Shown here: piece by piece, positions 42,395-48,555 of the stretch
Layout of the letters: each line of letters begins with the position of its first letter
Numbering within the stretch: the stretch's first letter is position 1
Origin: Halobaculum magnesiiphilum
Lineage (GTDB): Archaea > Halobacteriota > Halobacteria > Halobacteriales > Haloferacaceae
DNA: 64,000 nucleotides
Direction of reading: 5' to 3'
Assembly (NCBI RefSeq): GCF_019823105.1
Contig: NZ_CP081958.1
Location: 2,480,001-2,544,000 of the forward strand
Program-made: the position numbers and the translations under genes
The notes under the pieces: model-generated
The model's database searches: none
What the model was told of the DNA's origin: nothing
What the model saw: the letters and a program-made list of their open reading frames with translations, nothing else

Positions 42395-42469
42395 GGGTTG
42401 GTGGTCTAGTCCGGTTATGACGGCTCCTTCACACGGAGCAGGTCGGCGGTTCGAATCCGCCCCAACCCA
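42395..42469 (+). tRNA. tRNA-Val (anticodon CAC)
   Basis: A 75-nt cloverleaf. Acceptor GGGTTGG (42395-42401) pairs with CCAACCC (42462-42468), discriminator A42469. The anticodon stem GCTCC/GGAGC encloses the loop TTCACAC, giving anticodon CAC for valine GTG codons. The T stem GGCGG/CCGCC has loop TTCGAAT. No intron and no encoded CCA are seen (CAG follows). Confidence 0.93.
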
Positions 42470-43490: not shown

Positions 43491-43853
43491 CTACGACGCG
43501 AGCGCGCTCTCGACCTCCGAGCGCAGCGTGTCCTCCTCGACGGGCTTCGTGACGTAGCCGTCGGCGCCCGCCTTCACCGCCTGCTTCATCTGGTCGCGCT
43601 GTTCGACGCTGGTGCACATCACGACGCACGTGCCGGGGTCGCGCTCCTTGATGTCGCTGGTCGCCTCGATGCCGTTCACCTCGGGCATCATGATGTCCAT
43701 CGTGACCAGGTCCGGCCTGGTCTCCTCGAACAGCTCGACCGCCTCCGACCCGTTCTCGGCCTCTCCCACGACCTCGAAGTCGTCCTCGAGGATCCCCCGG
43801 ATGAGCGTGCGCTGGAACCCGGAGTCGTCCACGATGAGGATCCGTCTCGCCAT
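43491..43853 (-). CDS. CheY-like single-domain response regulator
   Basis: A 120-aa receiver domain with no output domain. It has the acidic pair in ILIVDDSGF, phospho-acceptor Asp in LVTMDIMMPEVNG, switch Thr/Ser in VMCTSVEQ and the conserved Lys in YVTKPVEED. It resembles chemotaxis CheY, but no che genes are in this window, so it may serve another kinase. CGCTTATCC at 43876-43884 (minus strand) is a TATA-like box ~28 bp upstream. Degenerate 10-bp tandem repeats lie further upstream at 43931-43955. Confidence 0.9.
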   Translation of the reverse strand: MARRILIVDDSGFQRTLIRGILEDDFEVVGEAENGSEAVELFEETRPDLVTMDIMMPEVNGIEATSDIKERDPGTCVVMCTSVEQRDQMKQAVKAGADGYVTKPVEEDTLRSEVESALAS

Positions 43854-43930
43854 GGACGACACTCCTCCGTCCCGCGGATAAGCGTTCACCCGACGGATCC
43901 AGGCGTGAGATTTTGGACGGGCCGAGTCGG

Positions 43931-43955
43931 GTCGGGACGAGTCGGGACGAGTCGG
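43931..43955. repeat. Tandem 10-bp repeat upstream of cheY-like gene
   Basis: GTCGGGACGA twice in direct succession (43931-43950), then a partial third copy GTCGGG. It is ~50 bp beyond the TATA-like box of the response-regulator gene. Could be an operator or a slippage product. Confidence 0.5.
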
Positions 43956-44050
43956 GTCAGGCCGGGCTGGATCGGCCACGCGACTCGACCGCGTCGGCGA
44001 CTCCCTCGGCCGACTCACGGACGGCCCCGGCCGATGGTACGGAAAGCTTA

Positions 44051-44076: not shown

Positions 44077-44496
44077 ATGGGCGTCGTCAGCGTCTCGATG
44101 CCGGACAGCCTCGTCGACCGGATCGACGAGTTCACCGAGGAACACGGCTACACCGGGCGAAGCGAGTTCCTCCGGGAGGCGGCCAGGGACCTCCTCGGGG
44201 AGTTCGAGGACCGCAAGCTCGAGGACCGCGAGCTGATGGGGATCGTCACCGTCGTGTTCGATTACGAGGGCACGGCAGTCGAGGAGCGCATGATGCGGCT
44301 GCGCCACGAACACGAGGAGATCGTCGCCTCGAACTTCCACAGCCACGTCGGCGATCACAACTGCATGGAGCTGTTCATCCTCGAGGGGAACCTGGAACAG
44401 ATCTCGACGTTCGTCGGGAAGATCCGCGCCACGACCGACACCAAGACGGTGGACTACTCCGTCACCCCCATCGGCGACGCCGAGGGGATCGTCTGA
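44077..44496 (+). CDS. nikR: NikR-type nickel-responsive ribbon-helix-helix regulator
   Basis: A 139-aa protein with an N-terminal RHH domain ([38 protein letters not shown]) and a C-terminal ACT-like NikR domain. The metal-binding pattern is present: RLRHEHEE His, then [13 protein letters not shown] with His-x-His and Cys, matching the square-planar nickel site. It would sense Ni(II) and repress nickel uptake or hydrogenase/urease genes, none of which are in this window. Upstream dyad at 44051-44073. Confidence 0.88.
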
Positions 44497-44768
44497 GCGC
44501 GCGGGCCGACGCGACGAGTGTGGGGGATGAGAATTGTGGATTTGACGAATAACTGCGTCCGCGTGCGACGAGTTCTCGTGGGCATCCCCGATCCGGTTCA
44601 CACGCGGTAGTGTCCGGGTTTCGGATGATCTCCCCCGGGATATCCGCCCCGATCAGGTCGCTGTCGGCCGATCGTTGCGATCGCATTGCTATTCGATCAC
44701 ACACCGCCAGTCGCCGGGATCCGAACCAACCTTCAATATCAGGGGGATCGTATCCCCGTGATGGAGTT

Positions 44769-45911
44769 ATGGACATTTCAAACATCGCCGTGCCGGAGTT
44801 CGTCGAGGTGGACGCGGGCAAACGACTCGGAAAGATCCGCTCCATCTTCGAACGCGAGAATCCGAAGGGAATCATCGTGATGGAGGACGGCGAGTACGCG
44901 GGCGTCATCGGCGAACGGGAGCTGATCAACTCCCGCGTCGACGACGACACGCGGGCTGCGGCGCTGATGAAGTCCGCCCCGGAGGTCGCCCGCACCGAGG
45001 ACGTCCGCGAGGTCGCGCGCGTGCTGGTCGAGGGGAACGTCAAGGTCGCGCCCGTCTACGAGGGCGAGAAGCTGTACGGCATCGTCACCGTCGACGCCAT
45101 CCTCTCGGCGGTCCTCGACAACCTGGACGCGCTGACCGTCGACGACATCTACACCGAGGACGTGGTCACCGTCACGGAGGACGCCCACGTCGGCCAGGCG
45201 ATCAACCGCCTGCGCGAGAACGGCATCTCGCGGCTCCCGGTCGTCAACGAGAGCGGCCGCCTGGAGGGGATCCTCACGACCCACGACATCGTGGACTTCG
45301 TCGTCCGCGACGGCGAGCGCCAGGGTCGCGGCGACCGGCGTGGCGACCTCGACCGCATGCTCGATCTGCCGGTGTACGACATGATGTCCTCGCCGGTGCG
45401 CACCGTCACCGCCGCGAAGTCGGTGCGCGAGGCGGTCGAGCTGATGATGGACAACGACATCAGCGGCCTGGTCGTCACACCGGAGGAGCGCGACGACCTC
45501 GTCGCGGGCGTGCTCACCAAGACCGACGTGCTGCGCGCGCTCACGTTCACCGAGGAGGACGCGATGGACGTGCAGGTGACGAACGTCCGCCTGCTGGATA
45601 CGCTCTCGCGCGAGGACATCCGCAACTCGATCGGCCAGGTGTCGGACAAGTACCAGGAGATGCGCGTGCTGCACGCGCACGTCCGCTTCCACGAGCACAA
45701 GGAGAAGCTCCGGGGCACGCCGCTCATCCAGGCGCAGATCCGCCTGCGCACCACGCACGGGCAGGTCGCCGGCTCCGGCGAGGGGTACGGCGCCGAGCAC
45801 GCCTTCCACGTCGCGCTCGACAAGCTGGAGCGCAACGTCCTCGAGGTGAAGGGCGTCACCGCCGACGAGCGCTACCGCGGCCAGCTCCTCCGGAAGCTCG
45901 GCGAGCTGTAA
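44769..45911 (+). CDS. Four-CBS-domain protein fused to an HPF/RaiA-like ribosome-binding domain
   Basis: A 380-aa protein. Four CBS domains (~1-60, 65-120, 122-185, 200-270) form two Bateman modules that usually bind adenine nucleotides. The C-terminal ~105 residues resemble the S30EA/HPF fold (VLHAHVRFHEHKEKLRGTPLIQAQIRLRT ... HAFHVALDKLERNVLEVKG), the domain that binds the 30S decoding site in hibernation factors. The combination suggests an energy-sensing ribosome-hibernation factor. Start ATG 44769 is supported by TTCAATATC at 44732-44740. It stands alone on the plus strand. Confidence 0.82.
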   Translation: MDISNIAVPEFVEVDAGKRLGKIRSIFERENPKGIIVMEDGEYAGVIGERELINSRVDDDTRAAALMKSAPEVARTEDVREVARVLVEGNVKVAPVYEGEKLYGIVTVDAILSAVLDNLDALTVDDIYTEDVVTVTEDAHVGQAINRLRENGISRLPVVNESGRLEGILTTHDIVDFVVRDGERQGRGDRRGDLDRMLDLPVYDMMSSPVRTVTAAKSVREAVELMMDNDISGLVVTPEERDDLVAGVLTKTDVLRALTFTEEDAMDVQVTNVRLLDTLSREDIRNSIGQVSDKYQEMRVLHAHVRFHEHKEKLRGTPLIQAQIRLRTTHGQVAGSGEGYGAEHAFHVALDKLERNVLEVKGVTADERYRGQLLRKLGEL

Positions 45912-46040
45912 GCCGGTAGCCCCCACGAGCCGAACCAGCACGGCGAACCCGCGGCGGCACGGTCCCCGCCGTCTCTCGCTTTCTCGCTCTCTCGGTCTCG
46001 CGTCCGCCGAGGGGTCCGTGTCCTCGCGTTGCCTCGCGCC

Positions 46041-46893: not shown

Positions 46894-47967
46894 TTACTGG
46901 CCGGCGAGCTTCTCGGCGATGCGCCGAGCGCCCTCCGCGGCCGCGAGGTCGGGCTCGTCGGGCACGACCACGTTCACGTCGCGGTCGAGCTCCGCGCTGA
47001 GCCGGCGCTCGAACTCCTCGGCGAGGCCTGGGATGCACGCCATGCCGCCGGTGACGGCGATGTCGTTGTTCAGCGAGAGCTGGTACACCTTCATGTAATC
47101 GTTGGCGAGTTCGGGGAGGAACTCGTTGGCGACCTCGTCGACGGCGGCGTCGAGGTACCAGTCGAGGGCGTCGACGACGCTGTCCTCGATGGTGAACTCG
47201 TGGGAGCCGCCGCCGGGCTGCTGGATCACGTCCGAGAACGGCTCGAACTCCCCGACGTTGCCGTGCTCCTCCTTGTACTCGCGGGCGGTCGTCAGGTCGA
47301 CGTGGACCCGGCCCTGCGTCTCCTCCTCGACGTTGGCGACGATGCGGCGGTCCACGTCGTTGCCCGTCACCGAGCCGGTGGAGAAGGGCACGAGCTGGTC
47401 GCCGCGGCGGTACGCGCACGCCTCGAGGTTCGTCGACCCCATGTTCACGGAGATGAACACGTCGTCGACGGCCTCGACGCCGTCGCCCATCGCGGGGATG
47501 GCCCCACACAGCGACTCGGGGTACGCGCGCATGGTGTGGGCGCCGATGTCCGAGGACTCGATGACCTCGGTGAGGTTCTCCAGCCCGGCGTCGTTGTCCA
47601 TCGTCGGGATGGCGTACACGACCGCCGAGTCCGAGGGGACGCCGTTGGCCGAGAGCAACTCGCGGAAGAACCGGCCCGCCAGCTCCGCGCGGTCGTCGTC
47701 CTCCGGCAGTCCGGAGCGGAGCATGTACTCGACGCGGTCGGGGTACTCGGCGGCGGCCTGCTCCCCGAACAGGGCCTTCTCGCTCCCGGTGATCGCGTCC
47801 TCGTACAGCGCGAGACACGTGAGCGTTCGCACCGTGGTGAGGTCGTCGCTCTCGGGCTCATCGGGGTACCGAAGCACGGTCCGCGTGGACCCGAGCTTCA
47901 CGCCGATGGGGGTCGGATTACTCGACTCGAAACTGTCGTCGTCTGCGGATTCGGATTCTGCTGCCAT
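46894..47967 (-). CDS. Actin/MreB-like ATPase (salactin-related)
   Basis: A 357-aa protein of the actin-ATPase fold. Phosphate-1-like IGVKLGSTRTVL, connector region AVVYAIPTMDNDAGL, phosphate-2 VFISVNMGSTNLEACAY, adenosine motif NDIAVTGGMACIPGL and the C-terminal EGARRIAEKL are in the expected order. It resembles haloarchaeal MreB-like proteins such as salactin, a filament-forming actin of Halobacterium salinarum. The start ATG 47967 lies 2 bp after the stop of the ArlD/E-domain gene. It is the middle gene of a three-gene operon. Confidence 0.8.
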   Translation of the reverse strand: MAAESESADDDSFESSNPTPIGVKLGSTRTVLRYPDEPESDDLTTVRTLTCLALYEDAITGSEKALFGEQAAAEYPDRVEYMLRSGLPEDDDRAELAGRFFRELLSANGVPSDSAVVYAIPTMDNDAGLENLTEVIESSDIGAHTMRAYPESLCGAIPAMGDGVEAVDDVFISVNMGSTNLEACAYRRGDQLVPFSTGSVTGNDVDRRIVANVEEETQGRVHVDLTTAREYKEEHGNVGEFEPFSDVIQQPGGGSHEFTIEDSVVDALDWYLDAAVDEVANEFLPELANDYMKVYQLSLNNDIAVTGGMACIPGLAEEFERRLSAELDRDVNVVVPDEPDLAAAEGARRIAEKLAGQ

Positions 47968-47969
47968 GG

Positions 47970-48428
47970 TTATCGGAGCGCGGCGAGGCGGGCGACGAAC
48001 AGCAGGCTCGTGCGATGGTGGCCGACGGTGAGCCGCGAGCCGTCGGTGTCGTCGAAGGCTTCGAGGTACGCCGCGAGGGCGTCCTCGACGGACTCGTCGA
48101 GCCACTCCACGTCCCGATAGAAGGCGAGCGCCTCGCGGGCGCGTTCGCGCCCGCCGACGCCGACGAGGTAGCGTAACCAGTCGAGCACGAGCTGGGTCCC
48201 GACCACCGAGTCCGGAAGACTCGGCAGGTAGGGCCTGCTCGCGCCGCCGGCCGCCGCCTGAAGGAGGAAGGCGTCTTCCACCTGCGCCGCCCGCACGCGC
48301 GCGTCCGCTCGACCGAGGAAATCGTCCGGCTGCGTCCACCGGTCGGGTTCCTCGTCGGCGTGCGTCGGCGCCGCCGCTCCCGTCAACGCTCGCAACTCCT
48401 TCGGGTCGTAATCGCTCGGTCTGAGCAT
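47970..48428 (-). CDS. ArlD/E (FlaD/E) domain protein upstream of actin
   Basis: A 152-aa protein (158 aa if GTG 48446 is used). The C-terminal ~90 residues match the archaellum ArlD/E domain: RPYLPSLPDSVVGTQLVLDWLRYLVGVGG, then ALAFYRDVEWLDESVEDALAAYLEAF and LTVGHHRTSLLFVARLAAL. The N-terminal YDPKELRALTG is also typical of haloarchaeal members. ArlC/D/E form the cytoplasmic ring that links the archaellum motor to chemotaxis, but no other arl gene is here. The actin gene follows after 2 bp. A GTACATATTTACA box is at ~48485-48497. Confidence 0.75.
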   Translation of the reverse strand: MLRPSDYDPKELRALTGAAAPTHADEEPDRWTQPDDFLGRADARVRAAQVEDAFLLQAAAGGASRPYLPSLPDSVVGTQLVLDWLRYLVGVGGRERAREALAFYRDVEWLDESVEDALAAYLEAFDDTDGSRLTVGHHRTSLLFVARLAALR

Positions 48429-48555
48429 GTCCTGGTTCGTCCGCACTCCCTGTGCCGCTACCCTCCCCTATCCGGAAACGGTGTAAATATGTACCCTCCC
48501 GAATATCACGGTTGAAATCGTCGGTGCGTCGGCGTCGTCGCCGCTCCCGATCTCC

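Follow-up and report, generated by a model that had tools for sequence, protein, structure and literature searches.

A HibA-type gene in Halobaculum magnesiiphilum

We analyzed a 64-kb window of the Halobaculum magnesiiphilum genome (contig NZ_CP081958.1, positions 2,480,001 to 2,544,000; the window is the whole stretch studied, and all coordinates below are counted from its first base) and focused on a frame on the + strand, at 44769-45911, which is open throughout and encodes 380 residues. The predicted protein joins four CBS domains to a C-terminal domain resembling HPF/RaiA, and we call the gene hibA-type after the archaeal ribosome hibernation factor HibA, to which we compare it below. 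It is a real gene and not a chance frame, as a homologue was found in 291 of 292 genomes of the haloarchaeal class (each at least 90% complete) and was full length in nearly all of those listed. The features of the locus are as follows, with residue invariance taken from an alignment of 33 orthologues.

44732..44738, + strand: TTCAATA, a candidate core promoter lying 30 bases ahead of the ATG; presumed function
44769..45911, + strand: hibA-type gene, 380 residues, start ATG at 44769, stop TAA (45909-45911) included; conserved from its MDI start
44769..45125, + strand: first Bateman pair (CBS1 and CBS2), residues about 1-119; from Pfam CBS and model secondary structure, boundaries approximate
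45129..45311, + strand: CBS3, residues about 121-181; Thr-x-x-Asp ribose-phosphate motif, with T171 and D173 invariant and T170 near-invariant
45312..45365, + strand: loop equivalent to the peptidyl-transferase center (PTC) loop of Pyrococcus abyssi HibA, residues 182-199; G192 and R196 invariant
45366..45551, + strand: CBS4, residues about 200-261; T250 and D253 invariant
45564..45908, + strand: HPF/RaiA-like domain, residues 266-380; from Pfam S30AE, an AlphaFold2 model and a fold search
45696..45719, + strand: hairpin HKEKLRGT, residues 310-317, joining strands 2 and 3 of the HPF domain; contains K311 and K313

Two other readings of the locus were rejected. An upstream GTG start at 44610 was ruled out: orthologues align from MDI or MNI, and the stretch separating the GTG from the ATG holds a conserved promoter-like element. 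A large open reading frame on the opposite strand (44778-45941, - strand) was taken as a GC-rich shadow frame.

The Pfam CBS family (PF00571) matched four stretches of the protein (E=1.5e-37), in line with the two Bateman modules that an earlier sequence-only reading of this DNA had proposed. In NCBIfam, no family scored above its cutoff, and all listed matches were CBS cross-matches. The CBS module is strongly acidic (isoelectric point of 4.45 for residues 1-265) and the remainder basic (9.1 for residues 266-380), a charge split that fits a halophile protein whose C terminus must contact rRNA.

Sequence alone gave thin support for an HPF-like C terminus. The Pfam Ribosomal_S30AE family (PF02482) matched residues 281-361 weakly when the whole protein was searched (E=0.008); with residues 266-380 alone the match reached E=0.0014, its 19.8 bits lying below the Pfam gathering cutoff of 23.7. 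The orthologous C-terminal domains matched S30AE in 18 of 20 cases, the best with E=1.6e-5. A profile of this domain had significant matches solely to HibA-type chains (9l96, 5e-24; 9sr9, 1.6e-10).

A fold search with the full-length model had only CBS proteins among the 50 matches listed, because the CBS module dominates, and the C-terminal domain was therefore modeled separately. The AlphaFold2 model of residues 266-380, built from 20 orthologues, had a mean predicted local distance difference test score of 87 and HPF topology (strand, helix, three strands, helix), which was the same in the full-length model. When the domain model was searched against the PDB, the first 27 matches all belonged to the HPF family (HPF, RaiA, protein Y, RafH and plastid relatives), the best having a template modeling score of 0.83, normalized by target, to Escherichia coli HPF of the 100S ribosome (6h4n_x). 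According to these models, the C-terminal domain has the HPF/RaiA fold, and the S30EA/HPF-like domain of the sequence-only reading is thus borne out: structural similarity to HPF was looked for by fold search and is present. The HPF core is also the most conserved part of the protein (mean identity of 0.91, vs. 0.74-0.78 for the CBS domains).

Orthology to HibA and distribution

The archaeal hibernation factor HibA, published in April 2026, is made of four CBS domains and an HPF/RaiA domain and occurs in 47% of archaeal genomes (PMC13324472). For its Haloferax volcanii homologue, HVO_2384, tandem CBS domains and a hibernation-factor (RHF) domain were described in 2025 (PMC12607858); it had been named the homologue of Pab0961, the P. 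abyssi HibA, already in 2013 (PMC3820547). A profile of our 33 orthologues, searched with hmmsearch, matched the P. abyssi HibA chain 9sr9_H over nearly the whole length (E=2.3e-61; residues 2-377 of 380 against 5-388). It also matched seven further HibA entries in the PDB; 9SR9 is the HibA-ATP entry, according to the accession list of the HibA paper.

Homologues are close to universal in the sampled haloarchaea, being present in all 76 genera of the tally and in all 129 near-complete genomes of the family. A few of the matches within the class were weaker (for example, in genome G228) and may be a second paralogue. Proteins with 92% identity occur in H. saliterrae and H. gomorrense, with 89-99% identity in genomes placed in the same genus, and the hibA-type gene is single copy in the Halobaculum genome examined. 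No S30AE match above the cutoff, as expected of a stand-alone bacterial-type HPF, was found in this genome. With a near-universal homologue alongside, the suggestion that the protein substitutes in haloarchaea for the bacterial set of hibernation proteins is reasonable.

We consider it very likely that the protein is the haloarchaeal orthologue of HibA and an archaeal ribosome hibernation factor, with the HPF domain on the 30S and the CBS module on the 50S subunit. Its architecture, fold, orthology, conservation and single-copy state come from this analysis; we infer ribosome binding, the translation block and the effect on recovery from P. abyssi and Thermococcus barophilus. The hibernation role proposed from the sequence holds up through homology to HibA (PMC13324472) and the description of HVO_2384 (PMC12607858). 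The protein is not the new candidate factor it had seemed: the HibA family is already published and the Haloferax orthologue was described earlier, so the observation is correct but not new.

Several points weigh against this assignment. Identity to P. abyssi HibA is just 31%, and the full-length model had a predicted template modeling score of 0.48, with the relative placement of the domains not confidently predicted. We found no ribosome-binding data for the Halobaculum protein or HVO_2384, nor a phenotype for any haloarchaeal protein of the HibA type. GINS and RadB, proteins of replication and recombination, have also been co-purified with relatives of HibA, and a personal communication names RadA and RadB as partners of HVO_2384 (PMC3820547); a second role beyond hibernation is therefore possible.

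These partners could also be taken to mean that the protein is mainly a genome-maintenance regulator linking the replication fork to recombination, its HPF domain serving another nucleic acid. The P. abyssi protein co-purified with GINS23 and GAN as well as RadB (PMC3820547). Against this stand the sighting of HibA in the 70S ribosome by cryo-electron microscopy (cryo-EM), its abundance near that of ribosomal proteins and a deletion phenotype in the 70S pool (PMC13324472), as well as the strong conservation of the HPF core, and we regard such a main function as very improbable.

Comparison with known systems

The Halobaculum protein and HibA (Pab0961; 9SR9 and the seven further entries) share four CBS domains followed by HPF/RaiA, in the same order and alignable over the whole length. 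The P. abyssi PTC loop (residues 190-207) aligns without gaps with residues 182-199, at equal length, and the hairpin HKEKLRGT aligns with P. abyssi FNEKFRGV, which would fit the second of the two archaeal-specific insertions in the HPF domain of HibA (PMC13324472). Besides the low sequence identity, the differences are the halophilic, acidic CBS module found here and K311, which is N in P. abyssi. HVO_2384, compared by its description, likewise has tandem CBS domains and an RHF domain, and the numbering of K311 and K313 coincides; only sequence differences are expected. Other Haloferax orthologues are 73-76% identical.

The same architecture was found in chain a of PDB entry 9l96 (E=4.8e-94), a 'CBS domain-containing protein' of 406 residues, which is 39-45% identical to the protein type described here and nearer (49-56%) to a second paralogue found in haloarchaea, whose Gly-rich loop is longer. 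Our literature search found no paper or organism for this entry. Bacterial HPF, RaiA and protein Y have the C-terminal fold in common with the archaeal type, whereas they lack the CBS module and the two archaeal insertions, and the similarity in sequence is close to the limit of detection. Dri and Methanosarcina SriA-D (9e6q, 9znf, 9zng and 9zni) likewise place CBS modules on archaeal ribosomes but are without an HPF domain; Dri has two four-CBS modules, in contrast to one module plus HPF here, and the protein is thus not of the Dri type.

The second paralogue is another HibA-type protein, of about 400 residues, present in some haloarchaea (loci L096, L098, L099 and L103-L122; for example, L098:371-1579, - strand) and absent from the Halobaculum genome under study. 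It formed a separate branch in a FastTree phylogeny rooted on P. abyssi, and its stretch spanning the PTC loop has 40-50 residues, rich in Gly, Ser and Arg, compared with 25 in the type found here (type I). By hand count, about 44 of 145 genomes carry it at 47% identity or more. Between genomes of different families, copies can share 88-91% identity, against 65-68% for type I in the same genomes, a pattern that suggests horizontal transfer of the second paralogue.

Proposed mechanism and nucleotide binding

By analogy with HibA, the basic HPF/RaiA domain would anchor in the mRNA channel and decoding site of the 30S subunit, which bacterial HPF also occupies. The acidic module of four CBS domains would swing in the intersubunit space and fill the vacant tRNA sites of the 50S subunit, with the loop after CBS3 reaching the peptidyl-transferase center. 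Translation would thereby be blocked and idle 70S ribosomes shielded until growth resumes. In P. abyssi, HibA binds 70S and 30S particles (seen directly in the 70S by cryo-EM) and blocks translation in vitro; in T. barophilus, deletion of hibA left fewer 70S ribosomes in stationary phase and delayed regrowth (PMC13324472). The docking on 30S subunits that was first proposed agrees with the site of the HPF domain, but the contact is not with the 30S only, as the CBS module of HibA occupies 50S tRNA sites (PMC13324472).

Nucleotide binding is where the protein could act as an energy sensor. In P. abyssi HibA, the AMP/ATP site is the CBS3/CBS4 interface, and the CBS module binds AMP (dissociation constant of 12 uM) more tightly than ADP (65 uM) or ATP (113 uM) (PMC13324472). 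Both CBS3 and CBS4 keep Thr-x-x-Asp among the aligned orthologues, and this interface very likely binds AMP in the haloarchaeal protein. A true adenylate-gated regulator, loaded on ribosomes by AMP at CBS3/CBS4 and released by ATP, would go further. The P. abyssi experiments speak against it: AMP left the classes and distribution of reconstituted complexes unchanged, ATP added just one weak state, and native complexes showed no visible nucleotide (PMC13324472). Energy sensing, with docking set off by a drop in adenylate charge as first suggested from the sequence, is accordingly half supported, the preference for AMP standing and a clear effect of AMP or ATP on ribosome binding or conformation not; we judge gating of this kind unlikely, if by no means far-fetched.

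A possible link to lysine acetylation

HVO_2384 is reported to be acetylated at K311 and K313 (PMC12607858), and the protein studied here has lysines at exactly these positions. Neither varies among the 33 aligned orthologues; the motif KEKLRG occurs in 85 of 85 readable translations, this protein included (three further loci on the other strand were left out of the count). The two residues lie in the hairpin that probably corresponds to the HibA insertion touching uS12 and the decoding site (PMC13324472). Moreover, Pab0961 was associated with a Sir2-family deacylase (PMC3820547), and inactive Pat2 acetyltransferase co-purifies with HVO_2384. Acetylation of K311 and K313 might weaken 30S binding, with a Pat2-type acetyltransferase as writer and a Sir2-type deacylase as eraser.

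Other data argue against such a switch. HVO_2384 in the complex was not acetylated by Pat2 in vitro (PMC12607858), and P. abyssi HibA without both archaeal insertions inhibits translation as before (PMC13324472). At the K311 position P. abyssi has N, and where K313 stands the haloarchaeal paralogue has Q, R, T or K; in P. abyssi, K313 aligns with a lysine (K324 by our count). Acetylation of HibA is not discussed in the HibA paper (PMC13324472). The proposal combines published pieces with the conservation observed here, and we think it rather improbable that the switch operates; a similarly low expectation attaches to the broader idea that reversible acetylation of the two lysines ties hibernation to acetyl-CoA and NAD status, instead of or besides AMP.

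Upstream region and neighboring genes

The promoter-like element is near-universal upstream of the haloarchaeal orthologues, as TTCAAKA or TTAAATA. Between TTCAATA and the ATG lies a perfect inverted repeat, GGGGAT-CGT-ATCCCC (44743-44757), a possible operator. A similar but varying inverted repeat is found upstream in other Halobaculum, and none was seen outside the genus.

Directly upstream of the hibA-type gene, on the same strand, is a NikR-type nickel regulator (44077-44496, + strand). Salactin, the actin-like protein of haloarchaea, is encoded on the opposite strand two genes downstream (46894-47928, - strand; NF053533, E=2.4e-172). The region is flanked by a CheY-like response regulator (43491-44018, - strand; 167 bits with the CheY_Halo model, below its cutoff of 200) and a protein with an Arch_fla_DE domain (47970-48446, - strand). 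The sole tRNA in the window is tRNA-Val (CAC) at 42395-42469 (+ strand). A conserved operon was ruled out, since NikR and salactin are kept near hibA only within Halobaculum (plus one close relative in the case of NikR).

Implications

As a discovery, our finding brings little beyond the family already published. The acetyl-lysine coincidence offers a concrete regulatory test. With a HibA-type protein present in nearly all of the haloarchaea sampled, Haloferax volcanii is a ready genetic system in which to study ribosome hibernation in archaea.
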